DNA from: Geoalkalibacter sp.
GTDB lineage: Bacteria; Desulfobacterota; Desulfuromonadia; Desulfuromonadales; Geoalkalibacteraceae
Direction: 5' to 3'
Assembly (NCBI RefSeq): GCF_030605225.1
Contig: NZ_JAUWAV010000004.1
Span: 1-64,000, forward strand
DNA length: 64,000 nucleotides
The translations under genes were made by a program, and so were the position numbers. How positions within the stretch are numbered: position 1 is the stretch's first letter; each line of letters begins with the position of its first letter. A model generated the notes under the pieces. It searched no databases, was not told the DNA's origin, and was given only the letters and a program-made list of their open reading frames with translations. Shown in pieces: positions 8,828-15,869 of the stretch.

Positions 8828-9406
8828 TCATTTTCGGATCCAGCTTCCGTCGGACTGCTCCAGATGCCAGCCCGGCGCGGCATTCTCGCGCCAGGAATCG
8901 GCGAAAATGGACTGCACCTCCTGGACGCGATCGGGAAAGCCGTTGGCCCGGGCGATTTCGCGGTAAAGGCGCTGCCGGTCGGCGTTTTCCTCGCCGACCA
9001 GACGATTGAGCTCGCCGCGCGCGCGCAGATCCAGGCCATCGGTTGTGCGCGCCTTGAGCAGCCCGTCGGCGCCAATCCCCACATGACCGGAATCCAGATA
9101 AGGGAACAGTTTGTCCGAGCGCTGCTTCATGGCGTCCTTCACGGCGCGAATCTCAGGGGTACTGACATTGATATCCTGGGCGGCGTGCGCCGTGGCCGGC
9201 CCCAACAGCCGATGCAGGAAACTGCCCTTGTCGCCGGCGGGCGGCGGTGGCTGGGTCCGCGGCGCCGAACGCTCGCCCCAGACCTCCTCGACGATCTTGT
9301 CGGCGGCGCCGCGCAATTCTTCGGCGGGAAAGTAAATATTGATGGTGACGCAGGCCGCGGCCGCCAGAATCATCAGTCCAAGCAGGGATCGCAACAGATG
9401 TCTCAT
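8828..9406 (-). CDS. ydbL: YdbL-type (DUF1318) lipoprotein with a YnbE-like head
   Basis: 192 residues. Residues 1-18 are a lipoprotein signal ending in AAAAC, with C19 as the lipidated residue, followed at once by VTINIYFPAEEL and AADKIVEEVWG. The C-terminal half (from about residue 95) is DUF1318: a GADGLL segment, NRLVGEENADRQRLYREIA and a final WHLEQSDGSWIRK. In E. coli ydbH-ynbE-ydbL encode an AsmA-like bridge (YdbH), a small outer-membrane lipoprotein (YnbE) and a periplasmic helper (YdbL). Here no separate ynbE is seen; the head of this protein resembles it. Lies 63 bp downstream of ydbH on the same strand. Confidence 0.75.
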   Translation of the reverse strand: MRHLLRSLLGLMILAAAACVTINIYFPAEELRGAADKIVEEVWGERSAPRTQPPPPAGDKGSFLHRLLGPATAHAAQDINVSTPEIRAVKDAMKQRSDKLFPYLDSGHVGIGADGLLKARTTDGLDLRARGELNRLVGEENADRQRLYREIARANGFPDRVQEVQSIFADSWRENAAPGWHLEQSDGSWIRK

Positions 9407-9469
9407 CGTTTTCCTCCACGTTTGATGAATGCGCGCAACGTTCCCACTATAGCGCTCTCCTAAAGAAAT

Positions 9470-12400
9470 TCAACGACTTCCCGTTCGGTCGATGCGCCCC
9501 AGGCGGCGCAGCATTTCGCGAAAGGAGATGCTGGTCGCGGGCGCGAGCACGTCGATGCGCGGGGGCAACAGGCCGCCGTCGACGATATGCAGATCCGAGC
9601 CCGCGCGCGCGGTGCCGCGCAGCACGAACACATCGTTGCGCAGCACGCAGAACACCCCCAGCTTGCGATAGCGGTAAAAGTCGATGAAGCGGTAGATGCC
9701 GCGCGACAGGGCGGCCGAAATCCCGCCCTGGCTGATGACGCTCAGGTTGTTGACGGCGGTGACGCTGATGTTGCGCCGCCCCCGCGCGCGGCTTTGAATG
9801 TCGGCGACAAAGGCCGAGGGCACCGTGCCGAACAGACGCAGCTCATGGATGCGGCCGTCGATGACGCCGTTGATCTCGCCGAATTCAAAGGTCTGGGTGA
9901 GCTGCGCCAGATCCAGGCCGTGCAGGTCGATGTCGGCCTCAAAGCCGCGATAGGAGGAAAACAGATCGCGCGCGCGCAGATTGCGCACCAGGATGCTGCC
10001 GCCGAAGGCCTCGACGCGAGCCTCGCCCTCGGATTGCAGCAGCCCGCCGAGATACTCGAACTCGCCGAGATCGGCGGAGAGAGTCCCCTGCATGGCCGTC
10101 AGCCCCAAATCCTGGGTGAGACGAGCGAGATCGAGGTCGTCCATGCGGGTGCGGCCGGCGAGATACAGGCCTTGCGGCTCCCAGCCGATCCGCAGATGAT
10201 CGATGCGGATGCCTCCGCCGGCCAGCTCCAGTTCCCAGGGATCGGCAAAACTCAGGCGGTTGTTCGCGGCGCTCAGGGCCAGACGCCGGGGACCCGCGGA
10301 GAGCGGTCCGAACCTCAGACCCTCGTGGGCCAGCCAGCCCTGCGCCTCGACAGGCAAAGACACGCCGGGCGCGGCGAGGAAAAAAGGAATCCGGCCGCGC
10401 ACCCGCGCCAGTTCCATCGACCCATCCACCTGGTTCAGTCCAAGGTTCTCGGGCTCCAGGGTTCCCGAAAACCGCCAGCCGGAAGCATCGAACATGCCTT
10501 CCCCCCTCAGCGTCAGCGCCCCGCCCAACTCGAAGGCAGACGCCGTGGGAAGGAGCGTAGCCAGCAAGGGCCGCAACTGCCGGTTGTAGCCCGCGTCAAG
10601 ATCGGGGAGGCGCACCTCGCCCTGCGCCTGCCAGCCGTCCTGCCGCCATTGCCCCCGTCCGCTCAGGGTTGCGATATCGGCCAGGAGCAGATCCAACTGC
10701 GTGACGCCAAGGACCGCGCCGGCAGCATCCCAGGCGGCGTCCAGGACGAAGGTCAGAGGCAGTTGGGACAGATCGCCGTAGAAGGAATGCACCAGCGCCT
10801 CCCGCACGTGCGCGCCGCCCTTGAGGACCAGGCGCAGCGGATGTCCTTCGATCCACTCCAGGCGCCCGTCCAGACGCAGATCGCCGCCTTCGAAAGCGCT
10901 CATGTCGTCCGCGGCGAGGTAGTTCACCTCCCGCGCGTGCAGTTCGGCAAGATGGAGGGTCAGGGCACCGGGCCGCCAGCGGATGGCGCCTTGCGCGCTG
11001 AGCCGAGGAATGCTCACCCCCTGCCCGGCAAGGGCGGTGTGCAGGCGCAACGCGGAAAACTCAAGCACTTCTCCCGAGCGCCGCAGGCGGCTGGAGATCT
11101 TCGTTTCGCCTCCTTCAAACCCTAAAGCCCGCCACCCCGCGCCGCTTAGTTCCAAAACCCCCGGCAGGTCCGCTTCGCCGAGATTCACCCGGATGCGGCC
11201 CGCGACCCAGCCCCTGCGCTCCAGCAGGTCCGGCCACAGGCTCGTCGCGAGGAGCGGCGTTAGGGCGGCCAGTTCGGTGCGCTCCAGGTGCGCCTCCAGT
11301 TGATCCGCCCCGCCCCGCAGCCGGGCCAAGGGCCGTCCGCTCAGATCCAGGCGCGCCTCCCCCGTCAATCCGTCCAGGGGGCCTTCAGCATTGAACACGC
11401 CGCTCAGCGCCGCGAGATGCAACAGCGCTTCGGGATGAGGCGATGACCCCGCACGCCCGCGAAAATCGCCCGCCACGTCGAGCCGTCCATCCCGCCACTC
11501 CAGACGCGCCGCGCCATGGAGGCCTCCACTGACGGGCAAGGCCGCCGCGCCGCCGAACAACACCGGCAAGCGCGCCGCATCGGACACGTGCGCCTCAATT
11601 TCGGCGCGCAGCCTGCCATCGTCGCCCTCAAGCACAAACGACAGGGGCAGCTCATCGGCCCAGCGTAGACTCCCTGTACCCCGCCACTTGCGCACATCTC
11701 CCGCCCCCTTGAGGCTCAGCGCCGTCACCTGCGCCCTGTGCTCGGCCAGCCGCAGGGACAGCTCGGCCGCGGCGAGCCGACCCTGAATCTCTCCCTTGGC
11801 CCATTCCAGCGCCAAGGACAGATCCCGGGCGGCAAAATCGAGCTCCGGCGCCAGAAGCTCCGTCGCGCCGAAGAGTGCCAGCCAGGGCTCCAGTTGCGCG
11901 CGATCGAGGCGCTCCAGGGCGATGGCGCCGCCGGCCGTCAGGCCCTCGGGCGCGGGCCGCACGAAGAGCGGCGCCGCCAGCAGGGCGCGGCCGTCCACGT
12001 CGAGTTCCCGCACCAGCGCTTGCGGGAACTCCTCCCACTCCAGCCGTCCGATGGCGGAGAGCGCCAGGGGGCGTTCGGCCGCCAGTTCCAGGGCCAGGCG
12101 AAAATCCCCGGCGGGAAGACCGTGCATGTCCAAATCAAGGGCACGGGCGGCGAGGTGCTGCTCGCCGAGGGTCAAGTCCAGGCGGCCGTCGACAACTTGC
12201 AGCTGTCCGATCGCCCAAAAAGGTTTTTCCCAGACGCGGGGCTCCGTCTCGTCGCCGCGACCCAAAGCCGTCGCGTCGAGGCTGAGGTGCGGCTGAAACA
12301 GGCGCAGGCCGTCGAGCCTGCCGTGCCGCAAGTGCTCCAGGGAAAAATCCAGGGACAGGCCGCGCACGGACAGGTCAAGCACACCGGGCTGCGCCACGCG

Positions 12401-12634
12401 CAAACCACCGATGCGCAGATGCCGGCTTTCGAGTTCCAGATGCGCGATCGTTACGTCAGAATCAAGTCGGGCGCTCAGGGTGCGCTCCAGGTACGGTTTG
12501 ACATGGCGGTTGAGCAGGGGAGTACGGTAGGTCCACAGGGCGGCAAGGAAAATGGCGGGCAGCACAACCAAAAGGACGCAGGTCGCCGACAGCCATAGCC
12601 AGCGTCTTTGTTGTCGCTTTTCCGGCGTCGTCAT
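9470..12634 (-). CDS. ydbH: YdbH-like AsmA-family intermembrane transport protein
   Basis: 1054 residues: a basic N-terminus, one membrane anchor (about residues 13-35, LWLSATCVLLVVLPAIFLAAL), and a long beta-rich periplasmic chain of repeated short strands (VDGRLDL, LRLDGRLEW, VARLT-like patterns) typical of AsmA/TamB/YdbH proteins. It ends with the YdbH-like segment around TVPSAFVADIQSRARGRRNIS and GISAALSRGIYRFIDFYRYRKLG. Such proteins form grooves that carry phospholipids from the inner to the outer membrane. Its neighbour ydbL supports YdbH rather than a generic AsmA. ATG at 12634; 33 bp downstream of polA on the same strand. Confidence 0.8.
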   Translation of the reverse strand: MTTPEKRQQRRWLWLSATCVLLVVLPAIFLAALWTYRTPLLNRHVKPYLERTLSARLDSDVTIAHLELESRHLRIGGLRVAQPGVLDLSVRGLSLDFSLEHLRHGRLDGLRLFQPHLSLDATALGRGDETEPRVWEKPFWAIGQLQVVDGRLDLTLGEQHLAARALDLDMHGLPAGDFRLALELAAERPLALSAIGRLEWEEFPQALVRELDVDGRALLAAPLFVRPAPEGLTAGGAIALERLDRAQLEPWLALFGATELLAPELDFAARDLSLALEWAKGEIQGRLAAAELSLRLAEHRAQVTALSLKGAGDVRKWRGTGSLRWADELPLSFVLEGDDGRLRAEIEAHVSDAARLPVLFGGAAALPVSGGLHGAARLEWRDGRLDVAGDFRGRAGSSPHPEALLHLAALSGVFNAEGPLDGLTGEARLDLSGRPLARLRGGADQLEAHLERTELAALTPLLATSLWPDLLERRGWVAGRIRVNLGEADLPGVLELSGAGWRALGFEGGETKISSRLRRSGEVLEFSALRLHTALAGQGVSIPRLSAQGAIRWRPGALTLHLAELHAREVNYLAADDMSAFEGGDLRLDGRLEWIEGHPLRLVLKGGAHVREALVHSFYGDLSQLPLTFVLDAAWDAAGAVLGVTQLDLLLADIATLSGRGQWRQDGWQAQGEVRLPDLDAGYNRQLRPLLATLLPTASAFELGGALTLRGEGMFDASGWRFSGTLEPENLGLNQVDGSMELARVRGRIPFFLAAPGVSLPVEAQGWLAHEGLRFGPLSAGPRRLALSAANNRLSFADPWELELAGGGIRIDHLRIGWEPQGLYLAGRTRMDDLDLARLTQDLGLTAMQGTLSADLGEFEYLGGLLQSEGEARVEAFGGSILVRNLRARDLFSSYRGFEADIDLHGLDLAQLTQTFEFGEINGVIDGRIHELRLFGTVPSAFVADIQSRARGRRNISVTAVNNLSVISQGGISAALSRGIYRFIDFYRYRKLGVFCVLRNDVFVLRGTARAGSDLHIVDGGLLPPRIDVLAPATSISFREMLRRLGRIDRTGSR

Positions 12635-12667: not shown

Positions 12668-15340
12668 TTAGTGCGCCTCGCGCCAGTTCTTGCCGACGCC
12701 GATGTCGACATCCAGAGGCACCTTGAGCGTGACCGCCCCTTGCATCTCGCGGCGGATCAGCTCACGGGCCGCGTCGAGTTCGCTCTCGGGCACGTCGAAC
12801 ACCAGTTCGTCATGCACCTGAAGCACCATCTTGGTTTTCATGCCGGCGCGCCGGAGGCTTTCGAACACCCGCACCATGGCCACCTTGATGATATCGGCCG
12901 CCGAACCCTGCAGGGGATAGTTGATGGCGTTGCGCTCGGCGTAGGCACGCGTCGCCTGATTGGGACTGTCGATCTCGGGCACGGCGCAACGGCGTCCGAG
13001 CAGGGTCTTGACGTACTTGTTTTGCCGCGCTTCCTCGCGGCGCGCTTCGAGAAAATCGGCCACCCGCGGCAGGCGCTCGAAATAGGCGTCGATGAAGCTC
13101 TGCGCTTTCTTGCGGTCGATGCCGAGACTCTTGGCCAGACTGAAGGCGCCCATGCCGTAGAGCACGCCGAAGTTGATGGTCTTGGCCTGACGGCGCTGCT
13201 CGTCGCTGACCATTTCGGGAAACACGCCGAAAATCTCGCAGGCGGTGCGCCGGTGGATGTCCTCGCCGCGCGCGAAACTCTCCTGCAGCATCTCCTCGTC
13301 GGCCAGATGCGCCAGAATGCGCAACTCGATCTGCGAGTAATCGGCGGCGAGCAGCACATGGCCGTCGGCGGGGATGAAGGCCTCGCGGATGCGCCGGCCC
13401 TCCTCGCTGCGGATGGGAATGTTCTGCAGGTTGGGGTCGCTGGAGGAGAGCCGCCCCGTGGCGGTCACCGTCTGGTTGAAGCTGGTATGGATACGGCCCG
13501 TTTCAGGATGGATCAGCTTGGGCAGGGCGTCGGTGTAGGTGCCCTTGAGCTTGGCAAGACTGCGATGCTCGAGGATACGCGCCGCGATGGCGTGCTCCTC
13601 GGCGAGAGTCTGCAAAACCTCCACGTCCGTCGACCAGCCGGTCTTGGTCTTGCGCCCGCGCGGCAGCTTGAGTTTTTCGAAGAGCACCTCGCCGATCTGC
13701 CTGGGGGAGCCGATGTTGAAACTGCAGCCCGCCAGCTCATGGATCTGCCGCTCCAGCGCCGAGAGCTTCTCCTCCATCTCTTTGGAGAGCGCCCCCAGCA
13801 CTTGCGGATCGACGCGCACCCCCTGCCATTCCATGTCGGCGAGAATCACCACCAGGGGCATCTCCACCTCGCGGAACAATTGTTCCTGCTCGGTGTCTTT
13901 CAGCATGGGCGCAAGCTTTTCGAAGAGTTGCAGCGTCACATCGGCATCCTCGGCGGCGTAGCTGATCGCTTTGTCCACCTCGACCTCGGCAAAGCTGATC
14001 TGGTTCTTGCCGCTGCCCGCCACCTCGCTGAAGCTGATGGTCTTGCGCCCGAGCAGATCGGCGGCGAGACTGTCCATGCCGTGGCTCTTGGCCGCCGGGT
14101 TGGCCAGATAACTGGCCACCATGGTGTCGAAATCCGCGCCCCGCACCTCGATGCCCGCGCGACGCAGCACCAGCAGGTCGTACTTGGCGTTCTGGGCGAT
14201 CTTGGATTTTTGCGGATTTTCCAGCAGCGGTCGCAGGCGCTTGAGCACCAAATCGCGAGAAAGCTGCGCGGGCGCTCCCAAATAATGATGGCCCACGGGG
14301 ATGTACCAGGCCTGCCCGGCCTGCACGGCAAAAGATAGCCCCACCAGCTCAGCCCGCAGGGGATCGAGGCCGGTGGTTTCGGTGTCGAAACTCACATGGG
14401 TCGCTTTCTCCAACTGCGCGATGAGCTGATCCAGTTCATTTTCCGTGAACACGCCCTGATAATCGTCGTCGCGATCGCGGCTCTCGGAAAAAAACTCCTG
14501 CTGCAGCTTGTGGAATTCCAACTCGCCGAACAGCGCCGTGAGGGCCTGGCGATCGGGCTCGCCGGCCGCCAGCGCATCATAATCGATGCCCAAGTCCAGA
14601 TCATCCCTGAGCGTCACCAAGCGCTTGGACAAGAGCGCCTGCTCACCGAACTCGCGCAGCTTGTCCGCCAGTTTGCCCTTGACCTCGTCGACGCGCGCCA
14701 GCAGCTCCTCCACCGTGCCGAACTCGCTGATCAGCTTGACGGCGGTTTTCTCGCCGATACCCGGCACGCCGGGGATGTTGTCCGAGCTGTCGCCGGCCAG
14801 GGCCTGCACTTCCACGACCTTGTCGGGGCCGCCGCCGAAGCGCTCGGCGACTTCCGCCGGGCCGTAGATCTTGTCCTTCATGGTATCGAGCATGCGTACC
14901 CGCTCGGAGATCACCTGCATGAGATCCTTGTCGCCGGAGACGATGGTGACCTCCAGGCCCTGGGCGGCATGTTTTTTCGCCAGGGTGGCGATGATGTCGT
15001 CGGCCTCATAGCCGTCAAGCTCCAGGGCGGGCAGATTGAAGGCGCGCACCAGCTCCTTGATCACGGGGATCTGCGGCCGCAGATCCTCGGGCATGGCGGC
15101 CCGGTTGGCCTTGTACTCGGGATAGATCTCCTTGCGAAAGGTCGGCCCCTTGGCGTCGAACACCACCGCCAGATGATCGGGCGCGTGCTCGCGCATTACC
15201 TTGAGCAGCATGTTGGTGAAGCCGAAGATGGCATTGGTGGCCAGCCCCTTGGAGTTGGAGAGATGGCGGATGGCGAAATAGGCGCGGTAAATGTAGCTCG
15301 ACCCGTCGATGAGATAGAGGCGCTTGGGCTGATCGGTCAT
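12668..15340 (-). CDS. polA: DNA polymerase I
   Basis: 890 residues with all three PolA domains. The 5'-3' exonuclease/flap domain covers roughly 1-290 (LYLIDGSSYIYRAYFA, LDGYEADD, GDKDLMQV, GDSSDNIPGVPGIGEKTA). The proofreading domain keeps its acidic residues (FDTETTGLD near 318), and the polymerase domain shows DYSQIELR (near 664), NFGVLYGMG and VHDEL (near 843). It acts in Okazaki fragment maturation and excision repair. The frame extends to 15451; ATG 15340 with GGGGAG is the family start. The ydbH gene follows after 33 bp. Confidence 0.98.
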   Translation of the reverse strand: MTDQPKRLYLIDGSSYIYRAYFAIRHLSNSKGLATNAIFGFTNMLLKVMREHAPDHLAVVFDAKGPTFRKEIYPEYKANRAAMPEDLRPQIPVIKELVRAFNLPALELDGYEADDIIATLAKKHAAQGLEVTIVSGDKDLMQVISERVRMLDTMKDKIYGPAEVAERFGGGPDKVVEVQALAGDSSDNIPGVPGIGEKTAVKLISEFGTVEELLARVDEVKGKLADKLREFGEQALLSKRLVTLRDDLDLGIDYDALAAGEPDRQALTALFGELEFHKLQQEFFSESRDRDDDYQGVFTENELDQLIAQLEKATHVSFDTETTGLDPLRAELVGLSFAVQAGQAWYIPVGHHYLGAPAQLSRDLVLKRLRPLLENPQKSKIAQNAKYDLLVLRRAGIEVRGADFDTMVASYLANPAAKSHGMDSLAADLLGRKTISFSEVAGSGKNQISFAEVEVDKAISYAAEDADVTLQLFEKLAPMLKDTEQEQLFREVEMPLVVILADMEWQGVRVDPQVLGALSKEMEEKLSALERQIHELAGCSFNIGSPRQIGEVLFEKLKLPRGRKTKTGWSTDVEVLQTLAEEHAIAARILEHRSLAKLKGTYTDALPKLIHPETGRIHTSFNQTVTATGRLSSSDPNLQNIPIRSEEGRRIREAFIPADGHVLLAADYSQIELRILAHLADEEMLQESFARGEDIHRRTACEIFGVFPEMVSDEQRRQAKTINFGVLYGMGAFSLAKSLGIDRKKAQSFIDAYFERLPRVADFLEARREEARQNKYVKTLLGRRCAVPEIDSPNQATRAYAERNAINYPLQGSAADIIKVAMVRVFESLRRAGMKTKMVLQVHDELVFDVPESELDAARELIRREMQGAVTLKVPLDVDIGVGKNWREAH

Positions 15341-15422
15341 GGGGCTCCCCGGAAGTGGAATGGGGGCATTATTCCACAGACGGGGGGAAAGAGAAAGGCA
15401 CGGTGCTGAAGAGCCGCGAACT

Positions 15423-15869
15423 TTAAGAGGCGCGGGCCTCCAGCAAGGCACGCACGCGTCGTTGCGCGACGCCGAGAGCCGATTGGGCGGCCTCGCTGAG
15501 CCGCATGCCGAAACCTAGATCCGCCGCCGGCAAGGTCAGAAGCCAGGCACGCGGACGGCGGCCATAAAGTTCAGCCGTCATGCCCAGCAATAGGGCGGGA
15601 GAAAGTTGATGGCCGCAGCGCCCTACGCCGGCCTGCGGCTCGATTTTTCCCATGCGAAAAATTTCAGGCTGTCCACGCCGGGCATCCATGAACAGGACAC
15701 GCTCGATGTCGCTTGCGGCAAGCTCAAGGGTTAACTCTGGCGCCAGCTGGTGCAGCGCCTGGATGCGCGCCGACTTGCCGTCAACCTGTCCGGCCAGCCG
15801 CTCGGCGAGTCGGTAGCCGAGGCCGTCGTCGCCGCGCATCAGATTGCCGTAACCCAGAACCAGCCACAT
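15423..15869 (-). CDS. hoxW: Hydrogenase maturation endopeptidase
   Basis: 148 residues, HyaD/HycI/HoxW family. The N-terminus [18 protein letters not shown] has the NxLxxDDGxG motif whose acidic residue binds the nickel of the immature large subunit; FMDARRG and CGHQLSP supply the next conserved positions. It clips the C-terminal tail of HoxH after Ni-Fe insertion. Its ATG overlaps the hoxH stop (TGATG), so it is translationally coupled and dedicated to this hydrogenase. Last gene of the hox operon. Confidence 0.9.
   Translation of the reverse strand: MWLVLGYGNLMRGDDGLGYRLAERLAGQVDGKSARIQALHQLAPELTLELAASDIERVLFMDARRGQPEIFRMGKIEPQAGVGRCGHQLSPALLLGMTAELYGRRPRAWLLTLPAADLGFGMRLSEAAQSALGVAQRRVRALLEARAS

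Follow-up and report, generated by a model that had tools for sequence, protein, structure and literature searches.

A lipid-anchored YdbL-domain protein apparently standing in the place of YnbE and YdbL beside an AsmA-like protein in Geoalkalibacter

In E. coli, three genes, ydbH, ynbE and ydbL, code in this order for a bridge, an anchor and a YdbL function. A stretch of 64,000 nucleotides from Geoalkalibacter sp. (contig NZ_JAUWAV010000004.1, positions 1 to 64,000; the window) contains two genes in a comparable order on the minus strand. The first codes for an AsmA-like protein of 1054 amino acids (9470..12634) and the second, 63 nucleotides downstream, for a lipoprotein of 192 amino acids with a YdbL domain (8828..9406). 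This raises the question of what has become of YnbE in a two-gene layout. For E. coli, YdbH is described as interacting with the outer-membrane lipoprotein YnbE (PMC12977461), and YnbE is reported to work with YdbH in phospholipid transport (PMC11784454); further papers also touch on the topic (PMC8593681, PMC12802150, PMC8912898, PMC12569750, PMC10900882). The analysis presented here gives good support to the view that one lipid-anchored chain replaces the products of E. coli ynbE and ydbL, and that the head of this chain stands where YnbE stands. The layout is common and has been overlooked. Judged by titles and the beginnings of abstracts, none of the open-licence papers listed on DUF1318, YdbL, YnbE, the distribution of AsmA-like and YdbH proteins, and internal cutting by signal peptidases describes the one-chain form or the linker motif discussed below, and none of those listed on YdbL concerns, by its title, the function of this protein.

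The lipoprotein starts with a signal peptide (residues 1-18, 9353..9406) with a lipobox ahead of Cys19. This Cys is invariant in the 77 rows of an alignment of relatives (A5), for which the scan pattern demanded it. It is followed by VTINIYFPAEELRGAADKIVEEVWG. The head as a whole, residues 19-44 (9275..9352), was delimited by conservation and by the structural model and comprises the lipidated Cys, the candidate edge strand VTINIYF, to which a role is ascribed by analogy to YnbE, and an amphipathic helix modelled at residues 28-47. A variable, Pro-rich linker (residues 45-75, 9182..9274), with mostly low column information in A5 and a pLDDT of 66-76 in the blocks covering residues 51-80, ends with A73-H74-A75 (9182..9190), a motif like the -3/-1 site of signal peptidase I. 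The YdbL (DUF1318) domain occupies residues 84-192 (8831..9157). In a preliminary description of this locus, made from the sequence alone, the two adjoining genes had been placed correctly, and the lipobox, VTINIYFPAEEL and ADKIVEE were found in the lipoprotein exactly as quoted there; the observation as a whole is confirmed as real, and the interpretation attached to it is partly supported. Lipoproteins of the outer membrane have a lipobox with its Cys and a residue other than Asp at position +2. The window protein agrees with this rule and has Val at +2, as do 148 of 155 distinct proteins of the same layout (referred to as fused forms, seven members of the lipoC class described below included), with Ala in six and Leu in one. 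This residue suggests that the lipoprotein is sorted to the outer membrane.

The identity of the C-terminal part as YdbL is firm. Pfam DUF1318 (PF07027) matched residues 94-192 with an E value of 3.7e-17 (63.1 bits, cut-off 27), and it matched all 77 rows of A5 at E up to 1; an NCBIfam search gave nothing useful. The AlphaFold model calculated from A5 has a mean pLDDT of 90.2, with values of 96-98 in the domain, a helix at residues 28-47 and lower values in the linker. In a Foldseek search against the PDB, a single entry matched at E up to 0.001, namely 28oj, in which E. coli YdbL was solved by crystallography (E 3.8e-4, TM to target 0.82). The alignment of the model to 28oj by VIA-align gave a Z score of 10.0 and an rmsd of 2.0 over 86 of 87 residues, with the next row at Z 5.5, and the same entry, named 'Probable chaperone-like protein YdbL', was also found with a sequence profile (E 6.1e-8). 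E. coli YdbL is a short protein starting with a signal peptide without a lipobox, whereas the form in the window is a lipoprotein in which head and linker precede the domain.

The evidence which carries the replacement of two proteins by one chain comes from the distribution of separate YnbE proteins. It had been noted in the preliminary description that no separate ynbE is present, and none was found in the whole genome from which the window is derived: PF13617 (YnbE) matched only at E 1.79, inside a frame of 338 amino acids on another contig, and our own YnbE profiles had no match there with E limits of 10 and of 1. The window's phylum (Thermodesulfobacteriota, judged by named neighbours) was sampled with 197 genomes, of which 56 contain DUF1318, in 59 matches. 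Of these matches, 58, the window included, were read (G194:C119 was left out). Seventeen are short forms without a lipobox and 41 are lipoproteins, namely 37 with the head T-[VIL]-[ND]-[VIL]-[YF]-F, among them the window protein, and four of a class designated lipoD. For 16 of the 17 short forms, a tiny YnbE-type lipoprotein is encoded just upstream, being of the type PITINLNVKIEHEI..KVEKELDDV..LF or PIHITIDVNVKVDKALDDFFGDID; for the remaining one, which lies at a contig edge (G184), YnbE was found on another contig. A 17-row YnbE profile searched against whole genomes gave strong matches (E 1.2e-15 or better) for all 17 genomes with short forms, but for none of the 39 other genomes with DUF1318, which are of the lipoprotein type (best E 0.1). 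Since 16 of the 17 rows of this profile originate from the short-form loci of the phylum, the presence there is partly circular; this does not affect the result that YnbE is lacking in the other 39 genomes.

A similar distribution was obtained for 184 gammaproteobacterial genomes, a group represented in the profile by a single row, that of E. coli. DUF1318 was present in 51 of them, and all 51 loci were read, giving 18 short forms (two of which, G309 and G429, have a stop inside the DUF1318 match), 31 proteins with the head by pattern and two with variant heads (G294 and G272), which were counted as lipoprotein forms but are not among the 155. YnbE was matched in the genomes of all 18 short forms at E 1.5e-5 or better, in 17 cases in the same locus and in G370 as a partial match on another contig. 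Among the 33 lipoprotein forms, a YnbE match (E 7.7e-7) was found for one, G420, as a partial sequence at a contig edge. This sequence (L308 1-100, G420:C312) resembles the YnbEs of the window's phylum and perhaps belongs to a foreign contig. In the pooled samples (381 genomes), all 35 genomes with a short YdbL have YnbE, compared with 1 of the 72 that have a lipoprotein-type DUF1318 protein. The YnbE profile likewise gave no match in 25 genomes reached via named fused loci, which partly overlap with the samples (best E 0.33), nor in an overlapping set of 40 genomes with lipoprotein forms (best E 0.31). The mutual exclusion of a separate YnbE and the one-chain lipoprotein is supported by these data, with one doubtful exception. 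The proposal that one chain is used in place of ynbE and ydbL thus stands, but the homology of its head to YnbE, which had been part of the same proposal, is not backed by a significant match.

The layout is not a peculiarity of one lineage, a view which was rejected on the basis of a pattern scan with one genome per species. At least 594 stretches were obtained, at least 574 of which were confirmed as relatives; no relative was present in the viral contigs scanned. The best 80 of the at least 574 are distributed over Desulfuromonadales, other deltaproteobacterial groups, Nitrospirae, Deferribacteres, Methylomirabilota, Binatota, Magnetococcales and many Gammaproteobacteria, with some labels of metagenome-assembled genomes (MAGs) being doubtful. 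One sequence labelled Chloroflexi (L119) shares 57% identity with the window protein, is almost the same sequence as L121 and probably carries a wrong label. Among 40 genomes searched, the lipoprotein was present in 20, including the window's own, and the head pattern CVT[IV]NIYFPAE..R.[AV]A[DE].[IF]V.EV is kept in these 20 sequences, so that its conservation exceeds chance. In A5, the invariance of the head is a product of selection, because the rows were gathered with a pattern fixing CVT[VI]N[IV]YF; this does not apply to A73 and A75. Variant heads, CATTNAYFP and CINITINFP, occur on otherwise normal fused proteins (L298, L303) and represent natural variants of the strand.

The gene upstream is mostly AsmA-like in other loci as well. 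The upstream DNA was surveyed in 74 named loci for which 1200 nucleotides or more of 5' DNA are available, AsmA-like proteins being judged by the tail of the open reading frame (ORF). In 65 of these loci, an ORF of at least 450 codons judged AsmA-like lies directly upstream, with a median gap of 42 nucleotides and a maximum of 201. Shorter or cut ORFs with AsmA-like tails were found in three further loci (L121, L125, L175).

By its model, the AsmA-like protein of the window looks like a bridge-like protein. The prediction (pLDDT 87.8, pTM 0.60) has a helix at residues 6-35, consistent with an N-terminal membrane helix, followed by beta strands over most of the length of the body, and a C-terminal helix. 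In Pfam, no family exceeded its cut-off; YhdP (1.6e-5) and DUF748 (7.2e-5) matched below it. The best match of the model in the PDB was LPD-3 (E 4.7e-8), followed by apolipoprotein B (6.9e-8) and, further down, the outer-membrane protein LptD (1.5e-4). As modelled, the window protein resembles the bridge-like lipid-transfer protein LPD-3 and the AsmA-like proteins YhdP, TamB and YdbH in its long beta-rich body and its predicted N-terminal membrane helix. However, the superposition over the full length is poor (TM 0.18 and 0.14), and apolipoprotein B, which is no bridge, scores almost equally. As apolipoprotein B and LptD are matched too, the likeness is one to large beta-rich lipid-binding proteins and not to bridges alone.

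From these data, the two genes probably make up a variant of the YdbH-YnbE-YdbL lipid bridge that has two genes instead of three, with the lipoprotein as its outer-membrane end. The AsmA-like protein would be anchored in the inner membrane and reach across the periplasm, its beta-groove carrying lipids. The open end of this groove would receive the short edge strand VTINIYF from the lipidated head at the outer membrane, as has been proposed for YnbE, and the YdbL domain on the same chain would keep this aggregation-prone strand from stacking on itself. In E. coli, YdbL reportedly prevents the multimerisation of YnbE. For the pair in the window, lipid transport, strand addition and chaperoning are suggested by analogy. 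In common with the E. coli system are the order of bridge, anchor and YdbL function, a YdbL domain recognised by sequence and fold, and a lipid-anchored head ahead of the YdbL part. The window differs from it in having two genes for three, a head with no significant match to YnbE, a partner outside PF11739 (YdbH), a tethered YdbL part and an AxA site in the linker.

Several findings weigh against this reading, and some of them concern the partner. The preliminary description had named the neighbour YdbH. It is AsmA-like, but its assignment to Pfam YdbH had to be rejected: PF11739 did not match the protein at E up to 10 and gave no match in the window's own genome, which has one TamB, and at E up to 0.01 it matched none of 33 aligned partners from two-gene loci (L132 at 0.066), compared with all 14 partners from three-gene loci. 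These 14 represent the loci L055-L069 with the exception of L059, a short-form locus in whose 5.8 kb of upstream DNA no AsmA-like ORF is present. An AsmA-like upstream ORF is also missing in 6 of the 74 loci surveyed (L129, L166, L173, L183, L189, L193). When the C-terminal 450 residues of the two-gene and three-gene partner sets were compared by hhalign, a value of 98.6% was obtained over 187 columns with 13% identity. Comparable values were obtained for the partners belonging to two other classes of DUF1318 lipoproteins, with 98.1% to the YdbH set and 98.6% to the fused-partner set; the profile match therefore shows kinship among AsmA-like proteins only, with no special tie to YdbH.

The other findings on this side concern the lipoprotein. 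The comparison of the head with YnbE, as proposed in the preliminary description, yielded no significant match by profile or permutation tests. YnbEs have roughly 12-22 residues between the lipidated Cys and the strand and the fused head has none, so that the geometry of the head must differ from that of YnbE. The strand VTINIYF is a coil in the single-chain AlphaFold model, in which only the helix of the head is formed. In addition, the lipoprotein may be cleaved, because its linker carries a near-invariant site of the signal-peptidase-I type; if the linker is cut, the lipoprotein would not be one working chain.

Three explanations compete with this reading in whole or in part, two of them for the linker motif. 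In the 77 rows of A5, the linker is variable except for residues 73 (Ala in 73, Val in 4) and 75 (Ala in all), residue 74 being free. The pattern [AV]xA was found within three residues of column 75 in 154 of the 155 fused forms, the exception being C-F-A in L080, compared with 772 of 4052 control positions, which lie inside the DUF1318 domain and not in linkers. An earlier pattern restricted to A.A had identified 102 of the 117 sequences that could be anchored (the other 12 of the 129 could not), and its misses were due to bad anchors or to V-x-A. Signal peptidase I requires small residues at -3 and -1 and no Pro at +1. The 154 fused forms agree with this rule in both respects: +1 is Ala in 70, Gln in 44, Glu in 20, Gly in 10 and Pro in none. 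The residue at -2 is often aromatic, His or Gln, and in A5 Pro is frequent at -4 to -6. In the separate YdbLs, the signal peptide ends at the place which matches the linker site. The motif is either a cut site or a structural or relict element.

A structural role is a possibility to be taken seriously, even if we would not favour it outright. Here, the segment 73-83 would be extended, with A73, A75, I79 and V81 packing against the YdbL domain or the partner, and the chain would remain whole. The residues 79, 81, 83, 84 and 86 past the site are also fairly conserved, and the segment before the site is weakly hydrophobic: its best 9-residue hydropathy has a median of 1.17 (0.70 in the window), while the median is 3.02 in 17 short YdbLs, the N-terminal signal peptides found in the fused proteins themselves have 2.69, and control windows in the domain have a median of 0.43 with 95% at 1.49. 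A hydrophobic core comparable to that of real signal peptides was thus not found. However, the model has no strand at residues 69-83, at middling confidence, residues 74 and 77 vary widely, and the residue preferences are those of signal-peptide ends.

Cutting of the precursor is a more doubtful explanation. Signal peptidase II would act at the N-terminus and signal peptidase I after A75, releasing a lipidated YnbE-like peptide of 57 residues and a soluble YdbL-like protein, so that the two products of E. coli would be obtained from one gene. This would account for the invariant A75 and the Ala or Val at residue 73 in a linker which otherwise varies and is modelled with lower confidence, for the excess of [AV]xA over the control, for the residue preferences around the site and for its coincidence with the signal-peptide end of separate YdbLs. 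On the other hand, the hydrophobic stretch is weak, both ends of the segment would be periplasmic, which is an awkward topology for signal peptidase I, and the alternation of small residues may reflect no more than packing on the domain. By title and beginning of the abstract, none of the papers listed on internal signal-peptidase cutting presents such a case.

A head unrelated to YnbE, that is, an anchor of other origin which places the YdbL domain at the outer membrane, with the bridge ending without a strand-adding partner, is rather unlikely in our view. It is consistent with a partner from a different subfamily and with the profile searches: PF13617 did not match the window head, our own YnbE HMM profiles did not find the fused head, and hhalign gave a probability of 9.2% at best. 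Against E. coli-type YnbEs, which have a KIEHEI stretch and a terminal Phe that are absent from the window head, column-permuted heads often scored as high as the real ones (47 of 200 in local and 56 of 200 in global alignments; 17 and 124 of 150 in a second run). When the shorter YnbEs from the phylum of the window were used instead, this was seen for 14 (local) and 1 (global) of 200, and for 3 and 5 of 150, respectively, so that a marginal match to these proteins is indicated. With the profile of all YnbEs, single heads had a median of 1.4 bits compared with -1.1 for shuffled heads, which is a slight shift; 18 decoy lipoprotein N-termini had -2.3 bits, a set too small to lean on. In addition to the marginal match, the conservation of the head argues against an unrelated anchor, since such conservation is not required of a mere anchor: among lipoproteins drawn by DUF1318 and not by the head, T-[VIL]-[ND]-[VIL]-[YF]-F is present in 37 of 41 from the window's phylum and in 31 of 33 from Gammaproteobacteria. 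The head resembles YnbE (PF13617) in its small size, its predicted lipidation, a candidate strand of the TIN type with a modelled helix behind it, and its place between bridge and YdbL; it differs from YnbE by the lack of a Pfam match and by the candidate strand following the Cys directly. The letters ADK.VEE, which had been taken as a likeness to YnbE, are coincidental and were rejected as a sign of kinship, as only 4 of the 155 fused heads contain them and, among 17 YnbEs, only that of E. coli. The head as a proven homologue of YnbE was likewise rejected as unproven, with profile and permutation tests being negative or marginal.

An extension of the cutting model, which we consider unlikely, is a widespread bacterial mini-polyprotein. 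Cleavage at Cys19 by signal peptidase II and after A75 by signal peptidase I would release, in a strict 1:1 ratio, a lipidated strand donor of the YnbE kind together with the YdbL chaperone belonging to it, and E. coli ynbE and ydbL would be the split form of the same precursor. To our knowledge, a single secreted precursor yielding a lipoprotein and a soluble protein has not been described. The split-form reading is based on a tree of 67 DUF1318 domains with 110 columns, which are few for this number of rows. In this tree, short, fused, lipoC and lipoD proteins form four separate branches, each present in 98-100% of bootstrap trees (98% for the fused form); three of the four groups are lipoproteins and the short form is the fourth. 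The fork uniting short and fused forms has a support of only 96/75. As the tree is unrooted, fusion and fission fit equally with one change each. The longest end branch among the fused forms belongs to L184 from a Proteobacteria MAG. The lipoC proteins (L094-L097, L099, L101, L106) have two extra residues before the strand, a divergent domain, and the AxA linker site in 7 of 7. The lipoD proteins (L098, L103, L105, L108) are a distinct class of DUF1318 lipoproteins with the head V.V.....RT.LE.Q[VI]LG after the Cys; none of the four has the AxA linker, and three are encoded behind an ORF of about 1220-1460 amino acids. An internal translation start producing a separate secreted YdbL was set aside, since by eye no conserved Met with positive charges is present before a hydrophobic stretch.

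Upstream of the AsmA-like gene, and separated from it by 33 nucleotides, lies polA on the minus strand of the window (12668-15451; recognised by inspection of the translated sequence), giving the gene order polA, AsmA-like ORF and lipoprotein ORF. A polA-like tail is also present ahead of the AsmA-like gene in locus L113.

The probable two-gene version of the YdbH-YnbE-YdbL bridge has consequences for the family. With this layout, a candidate for the partner at the outer membrane is at hand for a large AsmA-like subfamily, whose member in the window exceeds no Pfam cut-off and which occurs in several phyla, with many Gammaproteobacteria among them. New here is the near-invariant [A/V]-x-A motif just before the YdbL domain, which is never followed by Pro and fits the rule for signal peptidase I; if the linker is cut, a single secreted precursor would give rise to a lipoprotein and a soluble protein. 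The layout is at the same time evolutionary evidence that YnbE and YdbL act together.

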